From: Planctomycetota bacterium | GTDB taxonomy: Bacteria > Planctomycetota > Planctomycetia > Pirellulales > Pirellulaceae | Assembly: GCA_016872775.1 (NCBI GenBank) | Contig: VGZA01000005.1 | Coordinates: 62,001-126,000, forward strand | Length of the DNA stretch: 64,000 nt | Reading direction: 5' to 3' | In this document: in pieces, positions 32,595-40,830 of the stretch | How positions within the stretch are numbered: position 1 is the stretch's first letter | Layout of the letters: every line of letters starts with the position of its first letter | Made by a program: the position numbers and the translations under genes | The notes under the pieces: generated by a model | What the model saw: only the letters and a program-made list of their open reading frames with translations | The model's database searches: none | Told to the model about the DNA's origin: nothing

Positions 32595-33416
32595 ATGCGA
32601 CAGGTACCCAAGTCACCGGCGCGGCAACTGCGAAGCATCGCGAGTCGATATCGACTGCCCAAGGTTTTCCTCTGGGAATGCCGATCATGCAACAGCGGCG
32701 TGATAATTACGGGCACCCCGGACAGTGACGCGATTTTCGACAGGGACGCTAACCGGGACCTTCGAAACGTCGGCTCGTGGTCGGACGGAGCCCCGGCGGA
32801 GTCCTGCGAGCAACGTTTGAGTCGACTGGAAGCGATCCTGTTCCTGGCGCGCGAACCGTTGTCGGCGCGGCGGTTGAGCCAGTACGCCAACTTGGCGGAT
32901 GGCACCGAAGCACGTACACTAATTTGCCGCCTGAACGAAAGATACGACCAGCAGAGTTGCGCATTTCGAGTGGAGGAGATTGCCAGCGGATTTCAATTAT
33001 TGACCCGTCCCCAATTCGCTTCCTGGCTGCGGCGACTCGGGCATGTGCCAAGTGAAGTCCGATTGTCGGCTCCCGCCCTGGAAACGCTCGCCGTCGTAGC
33101 GTATCGTCAGCCGGTGTTGCGCGTGGACATCGAGGCGGTTCGGGGAGTCAATTGCGGCGAGATCCTGCGGCAGTTAATGGATCGGGACTTGATCCGGATT
33201 TGCGGACGGAGTGAGGAATTGGGCCGGCCATACCTTTACGGGACGACGAAGAAGTTCTTACAGATGTTTGGACTCGTCGATCTCGACCAGTTACCGCGAG
33301 CGGAGTCACTGCGAACACCAGCAGTCCAAGCACCAGCGAGGAAGCTCTCGACTTCGGAAGCCACCCTCAATAACCAGAATTCGATAACAGACCAGAAACT
33401 CGATGCAGAAACGTGA
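32595..33416 (+). CDS. scpB: Segregation and condensation protein B
   Basis: 273 residues. The two winged-helix domains of ScpB run from about residue 75 (SRLEAILFLAREPLSARRLSQ) to about 225 (RPYLYGTTKKFLQMFGL). The conserved LETLAVVAYRQPV and VNCGEILRQLMDRDLI are present. ScpB with ScpA and SMC forms the condensin that organises newly replicated chromosomes. About 70 residues at the N-terminus and 45 at the C-terminus lie outside the family core. scpA is not next to it. The stop codon overlaps the ribosome binding site of the acidic protein gene. Confidence 0.88.
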   Translation: MRQVPKSPARQLRSIASRYRLPKVFLWECRSCNSGVIITGTPDSDAIFDRDANRDLRNVGSWSDGAPAESCEQRLSRLEAILFLAREPLSARRLSQYANLADGTEARTLICRLNERYDQQSCAFRVEEIASGFQLLTRPQFASWLRRLGHVPSEVRLSAPALETLAVVAYRQPVLRVDIEAVRGVNCGEILRQLMDRDLIRICGRSEELGRPYLYGTTKKFLQMFGLVDLDQLPRAESLRTPAVQAPARKLSTSEATLNNQNSITDQKLDAET

Positions 33417-33421
33417 GGAGG
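33415..33421 (+). promoter_or_regulatory. Ribosome binding site overlapping the scpB stop
   Basis: GAGGAGG begins inside the scpB TGA (33414-33416) and is 8 bases before a GTG at 33430. It fixes the start of the acidic protein gene and suggests that its translation is coupled to that of scpB. Confidence 0.7.
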
Positions 33422-33429
33422 AATCTGAC

Positions 33430-33861
33430 GTGAGTGTGACCGTTTTTGCCGGCGTCGCGAACCGTTCCGTTGCCTTGGATACGCCCAACGATTCGATCGC
33501 GATCCTTTCCAGCCGTTTCGCCGACGGGCTGGAAGACCCGTCGCGCCTCGATCCATCCATGGAAGATGACGACTTCGACGACGAAATCGACGACGACGAC
33601 GACGATGACGATGCCGACGACGACGACGATCTCGACGAGTTGGAAGACGATGAACTCGACGACGAGGAAGACGATGAACTCGACGACGAGGAAGACGATG
33701 AACTCGACGACGACGAGTGGGAAGAAGTCGACGACGAGGAAGCGGAAGAGGACGAGGACGAGGAGGAGGACGATGAGGACTGGGACGACGAGGACGATGA
33801 GGACTGGGACGACGACGACGACGACGAGGAAGAAGAGGAAGAAGAGAACGAGGCCTGGTAA
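33430..33861 (+). CDS. Extremely acidic Asp/Glu-repeat protein
   Basis: 143 residues from the GTG at 33430, 13 bases after scpB. The first 40 residues are ordinary (VTVFAGVANRSVALDTPNDS). From about residue 44 to the end almost every residue is Asp or Glu, with scattered Leu, Trp and Ala. The DNA contains a 24-base unit encoding EDDELDDE repeated about three times. Such a tail would be disordered and strongly negative. It may bind basic proteins or metal ions or mimic DNA, but no family is recognised. The stop is 4 bases from the stop of the convergent hemA. Confidence 0.7.
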   Translation: MSVTVFAGVANRSVALDTPNDSIAILSSRFADGLEDPSRLDPSMEDDDFDDEIDDDDDDDDADDDDDLDELEDDELDDEEDDELDDEEDDELDDDEWEEVDDEEAEEDEDEEEDDEDWDDEDDEDWDDDDDDEEEEEEENEAW

Positions 33862-33865
33862 TCGG

Positions 33866-35137
33866 TCATTCGAGCCGGAACAGTCGTTTCAGTGCGTCGA
33901 GTAGTCCATGGGGTGTTCCGTCGTTGGCTTCGCTGCGAAGTGATTCAAGGGGTGGGTGGAGCAGTTTATTGAACGCGCGGTCAAACGCCTGCCGGATTTC
34001 CTCCGCGATGCGTGGTTCGATGGGCTGAATCTTGTTGAGTAATCGCGCCAGTTCATCCTGCTTGACGTTATCAGCCAGTTCCTTGAGCCGGCGAATGGTT
34101 GGCCCGGTGGCTCGGTGGTTTAATTCGCGCATGTAGCGTTCGGTTTCCTCGTCGATGATCTTCTCCGCCAGCGGCCATTCGCGCTGCCGGGCTTTCTGGT
34201 TGGCTTCGCAGACGCCGCGCAGATCGTCGATCGAGTAGAGGTAGACTTCAGGGTACTCCGCCAGCCGCGGATCGAAGTCGCGCGGGATGGCGAGGTCGAG
34301 GATGAACAAGGGGCGCTGTGCACGGGCCTGATGCGAGGCACGAAAACTGTCCCAGGTGACGATCGGTTCACTCGCGCCGGTCGTGCTGACCACGATATCG
34401 GCTTGAACCAGGAGTTCCTCCAGGCGTTCCCAAGGTTCGGCGCGGCCGCCGATCCGTTCGGCCAGTGCCTCGGCCCGTTCCCGGGAGCGATTGACGATCG
34501 CGATATCGGTGGCCGCTTCGTCGCGCAGATAGCGGACGGTTTCCTCGCCCATCTCCCCCGCGCCGATGACGAGTACCTGCTTGTCGTCGAATCGTTCAAA
34601 GAACCCTTTTGCGAATTCGCCGACGGCGACGCTGGGAATGCTGACCCGCTTCTGCTGGATCGCCGTTTCATTGGCGACGCGTCGCGCAACGCGGATTGCC
34701 GCCTGAAAGGCGGTATGCAGCAACGAGCCCGCGGAATTGCCCGCGCGGGCCAATTCGTAGGCCTGCTTGACCTGGGCATGGATCTGGGCCTCGCCGACCA
34801 CCATGCTGTCAAGGCTTGCGGCAACCGTGAACAGATGGCGAATCGCGTCCTGCCCGGTTCGTTCGAACAGCTCTTCAAACACTTCCAGCGGATTCAGCCC
34901 GTGATATTCGGCCAGGAAGGCTGCGATATCGTGATGCGTGGGGCAGCGTTTGTCCTCTTCCGACGCCAGGTACAGTTCCACCCGATTGCAGGTGGATAAC
35001 AGCACCGCTTCGGACCCGGGAAACCGGTGGCGCAACAGGCGCAGCGCGTCGCGGGCCTGGTCGGGGTTGAATGCGAGTTTTTCCCTCACTTGCACCGAGG
35101 CGTTATGGTGACTGCATCCGACAACGTGGACCTTCAC
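33866..35137 (-). CDS. hemA: Glutamyl-tRNA reductase
   Basis: 423 residues. First step of C5-pathway haem synthesis: reduction of glutamyl-tRNA to glutamate-1-semialdehyde. The nucleophilic Cys is in LLSTCNRVELYL, the N-terminus has VGCSHHNASVQVREKLAF, the NADPH domain has VIGAGEMGEET, and MVVGEAQIHAQVKQAY is intact. A dimerisation helix domain ends the chain. It begins at a GTG that overlaps the stop of the upstream hemX-like gene by 4 bases, so the pair is translationally coupled. hemL is not in the window. Confidence 0.95.
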   Translation of the reverse strand: MKVHVVGCSHHNASVQVREKLAFNPDQARDALRLLRHRFPGSEAVLLSTCNRVELYLASEEDKRCPTHHDIAAFLAEYHGLNPLEVFEELFERTGQDAIRHLFTVAASLDSMVVGEAQIHAQVKQAYELARAGNSAGSLLHTAFQAAIRVARRVANETAIQQKRVSIPSVAVGEFAKGFFERFDDKQVLVIGAGEMGEETVRYLRDEAATDIAIVNRSRERAEALAERIGGRAEPWERLEELLVQADIVVSTTGASEPIVTWDSFRASHQARAQRPLFILDLAIPRDFDPRLAEYPEVYLYSIDDLRGVCEANQKARQREWPLAEKIIDEETERYMRELNHRATGPTIRRLKELADNVKQDELARLLNKIQPIEPRIAEEIRQAFDRAFNKLLHPPLESLRSEANDGTPHGLLDALKRLFRLE

Positions 35138-36003
35138 GGCGCATCCCCCGTCGCCGCGCCGTCGCTTGCCGAAGCCGGCTGGCTGGCGTGATTACCCGCC
35201 AGGACAAAAGCCAACGCTAGCGCTAGAAACAAAAAACTGGCCAACGTCAGGTAGGCAATCTTGCGGCCCCGCCGCGCGGGAACATAGCACCATTCGAATA
35301 TGTTCGCCGCCAGCAGCCAGACCAGCAACACAGCGCTGGAAAGGATCACGGGATCGGTCCAGGCAATGGAGTCGGACGTCTTGGCGGAGTTGAGCGCCAC
35401 ACCCGAGATAAGGCCGACGAGCAGCAGTCCGGTGGAAACCAGCAGCGTTCGGCGATTAAAGCGCTGCAGCCATTCCAAAGTTGGCAACCGGATGCCCTGC
35501 TGCGTCGGCAGCTTGTTTTTGAGACGATACGACTGCGCGAGGTACATCACACCGGCTCCAAAGCCCAACGCGACGGTGGAGGTGCCGGCGAGTAACGCGA
35601 TCCCGTGGACGGTGCTCCAGAGTCCGAGCGCTTGATCGCGACTGAATCGCGCATCGTCCCCCATCAGCATCGCGATCAGGATCAGAACCAGTACCAGTGG
35701 CAACAGGAACAGTCCGACCGCGTTTTCCGAATGCCGTAGGATCAGGCCGACATAGGCGCCAGCAAGCAGCCAGGCCGAAAGCAGGCACCATTCGTACCAG
35801 CTGGAAAATAGCGGCAGGTGCTGCTGCAGCGCCGTTGTTGTCCGCTGCCCAAGGAACAGCGAATGGGCCAGGATGCCGGCCAGAGCGAACACCACGTTCA
35901 GCCAGGCGCGGACCCGCGCGCGAAATGCGAAGCGTGCGATTTCGGTGCCCAGTGCGAGCAGGTAGCTCCCCAGGAAACAGGTGATCGTCATCCCCGACAG
36001 CAT
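35134..36003 (-). CDS. hemX: HemX/CcsA-like cytochrome c assembly membrane protein
   Basis: 289 residues from the ATG at 36003; a GTG at 36015 or an ATG at 35991 are alternatives. About eight membrane helices are visible, for example LNVVFALAGILAHSLFL, WCLLSAWLLAGAYVGLIL and LLVSTGLLLVGLISGVALN. This is the CcsA/HemX superfamily; members next to hemA are usually called HemX and influence HemA level or haem handling. The gene is coupled to hemA by a GTGA overlap. It follows the sigma-54 activator gene by about 30 bases, so the three may be one operon. Confidence 0.8.
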   Translation of the reverse strand: MLSGMTITCFLGSYLLALGTEIARFAFRARVRAWLNVVFALAGILAHSLFLGQRTTTALQQHLPLFSSWYEWCLLSAWLLAGAYVGLILRHSENAVGLFLLPLVLVLILIAMLMGDDARFSRDQALGLWSTVHGIALLAGTSTVALGFGAGVMYLAQSYRLKNKLPTQQGIRLPTLEWLQRFNRRTLLVSTGLLLVGLISGVALNSAKTSDSIAWTDPVILSSAVLLVWLLAANIFEWCYVPARRGRKIAYLTLASFLFLALALAFVLAGNHASQPASASDGAATGDAP

Positions 36004-36031
36004 TCCAGCGGCCACTCCACGCGAATACGCA

Positions 36032-37105
36032 TCAATTTTCCAGGTCGTACTCTTTCAGCTTCTTATGCAGGGTGTTGCGGTTGATACCCAGGCGTTTGGC
36101 CGCCTTGATCTGGACATTATTACAGGTCAACATCACCTGGGCCAGCAGTTCCTTTTCGACGCGGTTGACGATTTTGGCGTGCAGGCTGTCTTCGTCCGGG
36201 CCGCAACTGGAGAGTCCTTGTTGGACGACGGCTGAGGTGAGGGTCTCCAGGTTCGCGCCGAGCAGGCGGCTGGAAGGCGCCGGTTGTTTTCCGAGCACGA
36301 CCGGCGGCAACAATTCGACCGTCAGTTCATCGGTCTCCGCCAGCACCACGGCCCGTTCGATGTAATTCTGCAGTTCCCGCACATTTCCCGGCCAGTGGTA
36401 CTCCTGCAGTGCCTGCCGGGCGGCGGGATGAACATGCACCACGAATCGCTCGTTGGCTTCCGAGTAGTGCCGCAGGAAGAAGTGCACCAGTTCCGGGATG
36501 TCCTCGCGACGGTTCCGCAGCGGCGGCAGCGGTATCGAGACAACGTTCAGGCGCCAATAAAGGTCTTCGCGGAACTTATCGTCGTGCACCAGACCGAGCA
36601 AGTCGCGGTTGCTGGCGGCGATTACGCGCGTATCCACGCGCACCGTGTTGGTGTCGCCCACGCGTTCGAACTCGCGTTCCTGCAGCACCCGCAGCAGCTT
36701 GACCTGCAGGTGGGGAGTCGTGGAGTTGATTTCATCGAGAAAAATCGTACCGAAATGCGCCGCCTCGAAGCGGCCGGTTCGGTTGTTGATCGCACCCGTG
36801 AACGCGCCGCGCACATGTCCGAACAGTTCGCTTTCAAGAAGGCTCTCGCTGAGCGCCCCGCAATTGACGCGCACGAACGGTCCGCCCGCCCGGTCGCTCA
36901 ACCGGTGCACTGCACTGGCGATCAGTTCCTTACCGGTCCCCGATTCACCCAGTAGCAGCACCGAGGCATTGCTGCGCGCGACGCGGCGCGTCAGCCGGTA
37001 GACTTCCTGCATTGCCGGACTCGACCCAATCAGACCCGCAATGGGTGGATCCTGGTCCGCGCCCATCTTGGCGGGATTCGACGCTTGGGATTGGGGATTT
37101 GGCAT
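36032..37105 (-). CDS. Sigma-54-dependent transcriptional activator, no receiver domain
   Basis: 357 residues. The AAA+ domain starts near residue 25, with Walker A GESGTGKE, the sigma-54-contacting loop GAFTGA, Walker B TIFLDEI and the arginine region [11 protein letters not shown]. The C-terminal Fis-type helix-turn-helix reads [19 protein letters not shown]. There is no N-terminal receiver, GAF or PAS domain, so activity is probably set by abundance or by a separate partner. It is placed between hemX-hemA and an exported HEAT protein; target promoters are unknown. Confidence 0.92.
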
Positions 37106-37142: not shown

Positions 37143-39386
37143 CTAGGGCGGCGGCTGTTCTAGGATGTCGAGTATATCGCTCAACAACTGTTGCGACTGC
37201 TGATCCAGCCGCGCGCTGCCGTTGTAGCGCCGGTATTGGTTCAGGATTGCGTCGCGCGTCAGCAGGATCGAACGCGTCTGGACCGCGGAGGCGAACGCCT
37301 TTACCGCTTCTCGCCGGTCGCTGACGGGCCAGTGGGCTTCACTGGCGAACTCGATCAATGCCTGCTGGGACCGGGGCGTGCCGAATTGTCCAAGGATTCC
37401 CGCCGCCAGCGACGACAACTCGCCGGTCTGCAAGGCGGTCTCGACCGCCGGCTGCAGGCGAGGCAGATCGTAGAATTCGTAACGCTTCCCTTCCTCGGTC
37501 AGGCGGGTGACCCATTCCAGGCATTGCCGCGCCTGTTCGACCCGGCGGTCCCTGCCTACGTTCTGGCGGGCAGCGATGGCGAATGAACGGTTGATAATCA
37601 GGTCCAGCGCTTCGATCTCGTAGGGCCGGACGAAGACGAACGTGAATTCATCAAGCTGCGCCTCGCGCCGCGACTTCTCGACGTCTTCCGCCCGCGAAAT
37701 GATGCAGACTGGCAGGTGCGCCGTACGAGGCTCGTGACGCACCATCTGCAGCATTTCAGCAACCCGGGGTTGCTCGATCCCTTCGCTCAACAGCAGCAAT
37801 TCGCAATCCGGGTTCTTCACGGCCAGCTGAAAACCGGCCCGTCCTGTGGACGCCGATTCGGCCTCGAATCCGCGTTGATTCAACATCCCGACCAGCGATT
37901 GAACATCGGTCGATCGCGGATGCACCACGACGGCGCGGCGCATGCCGACGGTGGAACTCAAATACGCGAGGCAGTCAGTCAGCATGCTCGACCCGGCAAA
38001 AGCCGACTGGGGATCGATGCGCAGGATCGCCATCGCCGCGGTGAATCGAACGCGTCGGTCGGGATGTTCCAGGCAGGTCGTCAGCGTCGCCGGACGACCG
38101 TCGAGTGTCTCCAGCAGTGATGGGTCGGCAATCGATCCCAGCAAATGGACGATCGCCATCACGCCAACGGATCGCTTGTTGCGCAGGCAGTCGACCAGGG
38201 CTTCGTTCAACATCGCCACGCCCGCCTGGGACGCGTACTGGACGATCGCGGGATCGCCTGACGAGGGTGGATTGTCCAGACCGGCGATCCACTGCGCCGC
38301 CTCGAGCCGCGTGGCCAGCGCCAGTCGTTGATATTCCCGATTGTCCGGCATGAGCAGCGCCAGTTCGCGAGCCAGGCGCGACGCTTCGACGACATTCAAA
38401 ATCCGGGCATCAAAATATGCTGGAACCGGTCGTCGCGTCGTCGCCTCCCAATCCCATAGTTCCCCCGTTCCGTCGACGCCGATGACGACAGGTGACTCGC
38501 CGCCCAGATGGGCCTGAATACGCCGGGCCAGAAATCGGCAGGCCTCGTCCCGTGACGGCATCGCTCCCACCGTCCGCGCCAGCGCATCGCGAGCCGCGGC
38601 CTGTGCTTCCGCGTCGGCCTCCGGCAGAACCGCCGGCGCCAGGAAATAACCGACGCAGCGCGTCGCGTTCATTTTTCCGAGGACTCGGATCACCTGGGCC
38701 TTTAGCTGCGGGTTGTCGGATTGCAATGCGCCGACCAGCGGCTCCACGGCCTCTTTCCCCATGCGCACCAGCAACTGGCGGATCGCCGGATGCTCACTGC
38801 TGCGCGAGGCGTCCGACAGGACGGAAACCAGGGGTGGAATCGCGGATCGCCCGGCGAGCAGGATCTCCGACCCGGCCGCGGCACGGACCTGCAACGAGGC
38901 ATCGGACAGCTTCGGTACCAGCGTCGACAACCGGTCGGCGTCACGCACTACCCGCGCTGACGCATCCAGCACCCGAACCCCGAAGTCGCGCCGCGCGGCG
39001 GTTAACGACTCCTGGGCCGCGACGCGCAGAAAGAAATCGGAGCCAATCCGAGATCGCAACGATGCCAGGGCCGCGTCGTCCAGATTCAATTCCAGCAGCC
39101 GATCCAGGTAGTTGGATGCCTCATCAAACCGCCCCAGATCGAACACCACGCGCACGGCCTGGATCAACTGCTCCGGAGTTTTCGGATTCGACCGACGAAC
39201 GCTGAGGATCGCCGCATCCGTTTCCTCGACGAAGTCCGCCGGCCGTGCCGCCCCCTTCGCCGCCCCGGAACCCGGCCGTTTGTCCGTGGACGGCGCATTG
39301 GTGTCAAACGGGTCACTCTGAGCTGACGCCAGACGCGCGGCAGCAGCCAGACACAAGAGAGATGCGATTGTGATTCGACGATTCAT
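37143..39386 (-). CDS. Exported HEAT-repeat protein with degenerate receiver domain
   Basis: 747 residues. Signal peptide [22 protein letters not shown] predicts export. Residues about 65-480 are helical with HEAT-like repeats (for example [20 protein letters not shown]). Residues about 483-603 align in pattern with response-regulator receivers, but the acid pocket is HP (VVVHPRS), the phosphoacceptor Asp is Ser (LLLLSEGI, residue 534) and the conserved Lys is Arg (VFVRPYE). A further helical repeat region closes the protein. A receiver fold outside the cytosol would be remarkable; check whether the signal is real. The gene sits 37 bases upstream of the sigma-54 activator on the same strand. 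Confidence 0.65.
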
Positions 39387-39396
39387 GCGGGATCAC

Positions 39397-40830
39397 TCAT
39401 GAAATGGTGGCACGGGAAGTAGCGGCATCATCGATGGGCAGCGGGCCGATCTGCTGCTTCCATCGTTCGATCTGGCGGGCCACTTCCTGCGGAGCCGTCG
39501 AACCGTAGCTTACGAACGCCTGTAACGCATTCTGCACGCCTAACACGTGATAGACCGATGCGTCCAGGTCGGACTGCAATTGCTGAAATTCCGATAACGG
39601 CAGGTCGCAAAGTCGACAGCGACGCTCGATGGCGCGCCGCACCAGCGTTCCCACCAGATGGTGCGCGGTACGCTGCGGCGTGCCGCGGAGGATCAGGTAC
39701 TCCATCAGCGAGGTCGCGTCCAGGAACCCCTCGTCCAGTCGAGCCGCGATCGACTCGCGATTCAATTCGGCGCCGTCCACGACGGCGGTCGCCATCTCCA
39801 GGCAGGCTTCCACCGTGTCGACCGCGTCGAACAGCGGCGGCTTGTCCTCCTGCAAATCCCGGTTGTAGGCCAGCGGCAGACCCTTCACCAGCACCAGTAA
39901 GGTCTGCAGGCTGCCGATGACGCGGGCCGTCTTGCCGCGGGTCAGTTCCAGGACGTCCGGATTGATCTTCTGCGGCATGATCGACGATCCGGTGCAGTAA
40001 GGCTGTGGCAGTCGGAGAAAATCAAACTCGACCGTCGACCAGAGAATCCACTCCTCGGCCCAGGTACTCAGATGCTCGGCAATCATCACCAGGCAGAAGG
40101 CGGTTTCCAGCACGAAATCACGATCGCTCGTGGCGTCGATGCTGTTGGCAGCGATCGTGTCGAAACCGAGCCGGCTAGCGACATCGGCACGATCGATCGG
40201 CAACGAAGTGCCAGCGATTGCGGCCGATCCCAGAGGCATCACGTTTACGCGTGCGCGGCAGTCGCGCAGGCGCTGTCGATCCCGTTCCAGCTTCTCGATG
40301 TAGGCCAGCCAGTAATGGGCCGCAAGAACCGGTTGCGCACGCTGCAAGTGGGTGTAGCCGGGCAGCACCACTCCGGCGTCGCGTTCGCACCGCGCCAGAA
40401 AGGCCCTCTGAAGCTCGCGGCATTTGCCGTCGATCCGGTCGATCGCGTCGCGCACCCAGAGCCGAAATACGGTGGCAACCTGATCGTTGCGGCTGCGCGC
40501 GGTGTGCAACTTGCGGCCGGTGTCTTCCAGGCGGCCGATCAATGCACGTTCGATGTGCATGTGGATATCTTCGTCCGCAGTGCTGTATTCAAACCGCCCC
40601 TGCTCGATCCGCGTCTGTACTTTGCGCAGCGTCTGCTCCACTTGTTCGCATTCGATGGCGTCCAGGATTCCAATGCGAGCCAGCATGCGTGCGTGGGCGA
40701 TATTCTGTTCGATATCGTGCGCGTACAGCCGCTTGTCGAAACTGATGCTCTCCGTGAACTGCTCGACTCGGGGGTCTGTGCCCTGTTCGAATACCCCGCT
40801 GCGCGATGGTGTGGTCAATGTCTGCCTCAA
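39397..40830 (-). CDS. argH: Argininosuccinate lyase
   Basis: 477 residues starting at TTG 40830; no ATG is available before the conserved block GTDPRVEQFTESISFDKRLY. Last step of arginine synthesis: cleavage of argininosuccinate to arginine and fumarate. The superfamily signature is GSSIMPQKINPD, with the catalytic Ser in the mobile loop; HMHIERAL and TARSRNDQV also match. It is 10 bases upstream of the HEAT/receiver gene on the same strand. No other arg gene is adjacent. Confidence 0.94.
   Translation of the reverse strand: MRQTLTTPSRSGVFEQGTDPRVEQFTESISFDKRLYAHDIEQNIAHARMLARIGILDAIECEQVEQTLRKVQTRIEQGRFEYSTADEDIHMHIERALIGRLEDTGRKLHTARSRNDQVATVFRLWVRDAIDRIDGKCRELQRAFLARCERDAGVVLPGYTHLQRAQPVLAAHYWLAYIEKLERDRQRLRDCRARVNVMPLGSAAIAGTSLPIDRADVASRLGFDTIAANSIDATSDRDFVLETAFCLVMIAEHLSTWAEEWILWSTVEFDFLRLPQPYCTGSSIMPQKINPDVLELTRGKTARVIGSLQTLLVLVKGLPLAYNRDLQEDKPPLFDAVDTVEACLEMATAVVDGAELNRESIAARLDEGFLDATSLMEYLILRGTPQRTAHHLVGTLVRRAIERRCRLCDLPLSEFQQLQSDLDASVYHVLGVQNALQAFVSYGSTAPQEVARQIERWKQQIGPLPIDDAATSRATIS

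Follow-up and report, generated by a model that had tools for sequence, protein, structure and literature searches.

A HEAT-repeat protein with a predicted signal peptide and an inserted pseudo-receiver domain in Planctomycetota

Gene layout and neighbourhood

The window analysed here, a stretch of 64,000 nucleotides from a planctomycete of the family Pirellulaceae (GenBank assembly GCA_016872775.1, contig VGZA01000005.1, positions 62,001 to 126,000 of the forward strand), contains on its minus strand, at 37143..39386, a gene encoding a protein of 747 amino acids. The gene begins with ATG, its open frame reaches just two codons further upstream, and it is found as one copy in its own genome; the open reading frame, coordinates, length and quoted motifs of a first-pass annotation of the same DNA were correct on re-check. 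The protein, all parts of which are given here with their minus-strand positions, starts with a predicted signal peptide (residues 1-23, 39318..39386), proposed from composition and conservation and ending in a predicted AxA cleavage site. N-terminal TPR-like and HEAT repeats follow (about residues 60-275, 38562..39209; Pfam TPR_19 and HEAT_2, all-helical in the model), then an inserted W-x-W beta-hairpin (about residues 307-326, 38409..38468; two strands in the model), central HEAT-like helices (about residues 327-480, 37947..38408; Pfam HEAT at 435-457, and the model), a CheY-fold pseudo-receiver (residues 482-608, 37563..37943; profiles, AlphaFold and structure matches), and C-terminal HEAT-like helices (about residues 612-745, 37152..37553; model and family alignment), in which the family alignment reveals a conserved RG.LLT...I..QY.RYN motif.

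The HEAT repeats read from the sequence in the first-pass annotation were recovered by Pfam above cut-off (HEAT_2, PF13646, E=1.6e-11, 44.7 against 27.7 bits; HEAT, PF02985, E=2.4e-5, 24.6 against 23.5 bits), and the Pfam match to TPR is weak. The mature protein was modelled as a helical solenoid (pLDDT 85), into which the W-x-W hairpin and the CheY-fold domain are inserted; a Foldseek search with the full-length protein matched generic HEAT/armadillo proteins alone, with TM about 0.2. The hairpin lies between HEAT blocks, is matched by none of the Pfam models and carries a Trp that is nearly invariant across the phylum; it may represent a second functional site.

Five genes on the minus strand follow one another head to tail, separated by 10, 37, 16 and -4 bp: argH (argininosuccinate lyase, 39397..40830, identified by Pfam and lying 10 bp upstream), the HEAT/pseudo-receiver gene, a sigma-54 activator (36032..37105), a multipass membrane protein weakly resembling CcsB of cytochrome c biogenesis (35134..36015; NCBIfam TIGR03144, E=1e-8, below cut-off) and, at the end of the conserved string, hemA (glutamyl-tRNA reductase, 33866..35137; Pfam). 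As the first-pass annotation had stated, the activator is without a sensor domain of its own: Pfam finds only a Sigma54_activat AAA+ domain with GAFTGA and a Fis-type HTH, and rpoN is present in the genome. Against the PspF equivalog TIGR02974 it scores 285.8 bits, below the cut-off of 443.55. A search of the window for sigma-54 promoters returned 21 matches, where 26 are expected by chance, none of them useful. Beyond this string, an open reading frame following scpB (33403-33861, plus strand, 152 residues) encodes a product whose C-terminal half consists nearly entirely of Asp and Glu and which has no match in Pfam.

That the adjacency to the activator might be conserved, a check proposed in the first-pass annotation, is borne out: the activator lies directly 3' of the HEAT/pseudo-receiver gene in all 27 loci read in the window's family, with argH upstream in 25 of them, and the HEAT/pseudo-receiver gene adjoins 26 of 30 activator loci taken from across the order (a contig end truncates one of the remaining four), the median gap between the two genes being 51 bp. 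In a sister family (f3), the string lysA, HEAT/pseudo-receiver gene, sigma-54 activator, ccsB-like gene and hemA is kept in some branches, and the link is lost in most. Outside the class, members of the HEAT/pseudo-receiver family mostly have no adjoining sigma-54 gene. Since the link is absent in other classes, the pairing is a class-level feature and younger than the pseudo-receiver domain. The activator itself is unusually well preserved, with 63-77% identity across the families of the order, compared with about 30% for its HEAT/pseudo-receiver neighbour, and may be a core regulator.

Fold and lost phosphorylation site of the inserted domain

Pfam assigns nothing at residues 480-610 of the window protein, and the Response_reg model (PF00072) does not match the protein up to E=1, which places it outside Pfam membership. 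The same model matches 10 of 26 distant homologues below 0.01 (best E=1.6e-8), and in NCBIfam residues 495-610 weakly match AtoC, an NtrC-type regulator (E=0.0015). Searched against PDB sequences, a profile built from 31 homologous segments (A5) found CheY of H. pylori (E=1.8e-7), and one built from 25 closer segments (A6) found receivers (E=1e-7) followed by PleD, the pseudo-receiver FrzS being among its matches as well. Modelled alone by AlphaFold, the domain is a (beta-alpha)5 fold, running from beta1-alpha1 to beta5-alpha5 (pLDDT 84). With this model Foldseek returned CheY3 as the best match (E=2.6e-7, TM 0.74-0.82) and PmrA, PhoB and similar structures as well, VIA gave Z of about 17-18 to NtrX, CheY and YycF over 120-128 residues, and a search of a viral structure library yielded chiefly viral receivers and kinases. 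Residues 482-608 form a domain of CheY fold whose ancestors were true receivers; the receiver fold noticed earlier at residues 483-603 is thus recovered by profiles, AlphaFold, Foldseek and VIA alike, and a structure unlike CheY, which the first-pass annotation had named as grounds for abandoning the idea, did not emerge.

The phosphorylation chemistry of this fold is gone. CheY residues D12, D13, D57, T87 and K109 correspond to H489, P490, S534, S564 and R587 in the window protein, so that the earlier claim that all phosphorylation residues are changed holds for four of the five: S564 is an accepted substitute for Thr, and the exchange of Lys for R587 is conservative. We took as a functional phospho-receiver a domain possessing all five residues (D, D, D, S/T, K), which the window domain does not. 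Neither does any of the 117 domains of the family; three of them have four, and the phospho-Asp is kept in only eight, His being the commonest residue at its position (29 of 117). The most receiver-like members retain the E-D pair, the T/S and the K and lack the Asp, which fits an early loss of the phospho-site. A shift of the site by one residue was also considered, given that near relatives show S-D where the window protein has S534-E535; profile alignments set the Ser against the phospho-Asp, and whichever way S534-E535 is aligned, the DD pair is missing. By definition, a pseudo-receiver is a receiver lacking any one of the five catalytic residues (PMC12632262), and the window domain as well as the domains of its family are pseudo-receivers in this sense.

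Predicted export, distribution and history

Receiver domains are usually located in the cytosol. All 124 homologues nevertheless have a signal-like N-terminus with a positive n-region and a hydrophobic core, whose mean hydropathy is 2.51 compared with 1.27 when the same rule for choosing starts is applied to control genes of cytosolic proteins, although this rule favours signal-like starts and the highest cytosolic control value was 2.79. The charge bias predicts an N-in orientation in 119 of the 124, an A-x-A motif is found under a strict pattern in 59, and 123 lack a second strongly hydrophobic segment. The mature window protein contains eight cysteines, the family median being one, and eight is an unusual count for a periplasmic protein. 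Positive n-region, hydrophobic core and AxA site, the sequence hallmarks of Sec export, are all present and conserved in the homologues, and they strongly suggest that the signal peptide directs the HEAT/pseudo-receiver protein to the periplasm. The signal peptide proposed earlier is thus backed by composition, conservation and charge bias, whereas the signal anchor of a cytosolic protein, offered as its alternative, is disfavoured by that bias, by the conserved AxA-type signal peptides and by the lack of any other membrane helix.

Homologues were surveyed among Planctomycetota genomes and found in 229 of the 294 sampled, and likewise in 60 of 60 from the window's family. Of the 124 aligned homologues, 117 have the CheY-fold domain, and its absence from orthologues, the other finding that could have told against the receiver reading, is limited to seven (L023, L024, L028, L046, L050, L148 and L123), which keep the signal peptide and the HEAT repeats; 42 residues of the domain are left in L123 and none in the other six. 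In a FastTree phylogeny with the domain columns left out (midpoint root, local support), members with the domain stand on either side, and the seven without it form two nested groups. This placement implies that the domain is ancestral and was lost twice, and we infer that the ancestor of the phylum members sampled already had the pseudo-receiver. Such a phylum-wide ancestral family had not been recognised in the first-pass annotation.

The pseudo-receiver is under purifying selection, as the repeats are, with a median dN/dS of 0.074 in close pairs compared with 0.07-0.13 for the repeats. Conservation within it is highest from alpha3 to beta4 and lowest at alpha4, beta5 and alpha5, i.e. the usual output face of receivers; the pattern is clear in the wider family and milder near the window, and conservation is also fair in the loop that follows beta1. 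Two orthologues from the window's family (L169 and L172) continue, immediately C-terminal of the pseudo-receiver, with about 140-150 additional residues, which resemble further degenerate receiver-like units and would possibly represent a tandem expansion.

Possible role and comparison with known systems

We propose, with about an even chance of being right, that the protein is exported and acts as an alpha-solenoid scaffold in the cell envelope of planctomycetes, with the pseudo-receiver as its docking module. Sitting inside the HEAT-like array, the domain would serve constitutive protein docking, either gripping the flanking HEAT helices or binding an envelope partner, possibly through the conserved side (beta3, alpha3, the alpha3-beta4 loop and beta4), which is unlike the usual alpha4-beta5-alpha5 output face. 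In the periplasm, ATP-driven His-Asp phosphotransfer would be ruled out twice over, by the missing active site and by the want of an ATP-driven kinase on that side of the membrane. Against docking counts the fact that the domain proved dispensable in two lineages (seven of 124 homologues), and the alpha3-beta4 conservation could reflect mere packing against HEAT helices. The main rival is a fossil receiver turned into a structural insert that stabilises the HEAT solenoid without itself taking part in binding, which we regard as possible, if rather unlikely. The two lineages that dropped the domain while retaining signal peptide and HEAT repeats agree with it, as do the free variation at the catalytic residues and the predicted position of the domain between helical segments in the full model; yet the domain is kept in 117 of 124 homologues despite very low overall identity, its dN/dS is as low as that of the remaining protein, and filler would need no patterned conservation, such as is seen on one side. 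Were the old active-site pocket instead to bind a small ligand or metal and so report an envelope condition, the fairly conserved loop after beta1 and the frequent His at the phospho-Asp position would find an explanation, but the family as a whole retains no constant set of residues in the pocket and we hold this to be improbable.

The remaining readings turn on the activator, which had been suggested as the real partner of the protein. If the signal peptide were unused, a cytosolic or cytosol-facing pseudo-receiver might regulate the activator directly, replacing a receiver or PspA-type input; the short spacing and conserved adjacency, the missing sensory domain of the activator and the eight cysteines would all suit this. 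However, the positive n-region with its neutral or negative flank indicates an N-in/C-out orientation in nearly all homologues, the signal peptide is retained where no sigma-54 gene adjoins, and adjacency need not mean binding when argH and hemA belong to the same conserved string, so that we give this reading little credence. Still less can be said for the domain being the detached N-terminal receiver of its NtrC-type neighbour, moved by gene fission and fusion. The activator is indeed NtrC-like without a receiver, the NCBIfam match is to an NtrC-class protein and NtrX shares the top rank among the structure matches, but CheY, PhoB and YycF match equally well and the domain occurs phylum-wide in homologues with no adjoining activator; the tree disfavours such an origin, the domain predates the pairing, and we have rejected it as highly improbable. 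It is also conceivable, though unlikely, that the exported receiver fold senses the state of the envelope from within the periplasm and, in Planctomycetia, feeds back through the conserved co-operonic sensor-less activator, which, if true, would amount to a phylum-wide signalling design with a phosphorylation-free exported receiver-fold domain.

Under the scaffold proposal, direct contact with the activator is not expected. Within the order to which the window belongs, cotranscription of the gene with argH, the activator, the CcsB-like gene and hemA is probable, and the dosage of the protein would then likely be set with the operon. Of the suggested partnership the conserved adjacency stands; the partnership itself is weakened by a family that is phylum-wide and mostly lacks a sigma-54 neighbour outside the class, by predicted locations on opposite sides of the inner membrane, and by the longer conserved string (argH, hemA and others) to which the activator belongs. 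As an exported protein cannot reach a cytosolic activator and the domain predates the pairing, partner here probably means co-transcribed. Overall, what the first-pass annotation observed holds, and now applies to a family spanning the phylum; its reading is partly supported. A non-phosphorylatable, probably exported family across most of a phylum offers a clear-cut example from nature of a receiver fold that serves binding only, the conserved pairing with the activator is a testable route into the biology of the family, and the seven domain-less homologues are natural domain deletions and useful controls.

In the open-licence literature we found no paper on this family and no description of a comparable receiver or response regulator, whether periplasmic, secreted or extracellular, such absence being weak evidence; the one match for periplasmic receivers concerned the sensor kinase CitA instead. 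Among planctomycete alpha-solenoids, the membrane-coat-like proteins of the PVC group, one studied example of which is located at paryphoplasmic vesicle membranes, require an N-terminal beta-propeller followed by an alpha-solenoid (PMC2799638). We rejected this identity: there is no beta-propeller, and outside the helices the model has just the two-stranded hairpin and the CheY fold. With PspF-type activators the neighbour shares an AAA+ domain and a Fis-type HTH alone and the missing N-terminal sensor, but it scores below the PspF cut-off and none of the named genes adjoining it is pspA. The window domain shares its fold and the order of its motifs with CheY and the PF00072 receivers, and its descent is detectable in the sequence; the protein differs from these receivers in lacking phospho-site chemistry and any DNA-binding or enzymatic output domain and in being predicted to be extracytoplasmic. 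The mechanisms of bacterial pseudo-receivers are still "a mystery" according to a 2025 review, which makes no mention of periplasm, signal peptide, extracellular or Planctomyc. Within this known kind, the window domain is a pseudo-receiver predicted to have left the cytosol. FrzS-type pseudo-receivers, FrzS itself being among the profile matches, likewise have a (beta-alpha)5 fold without the catalytic residues, including the Asp, and FrzS binds via alpha3-beta4-alpha4 (PMC12632262), a surface resembling the conserved side of the window domain; the described pseudo-receivers are tied to cytosolic signalling, whereas the present one lies in a predicted exported protein, within a HEAT array.
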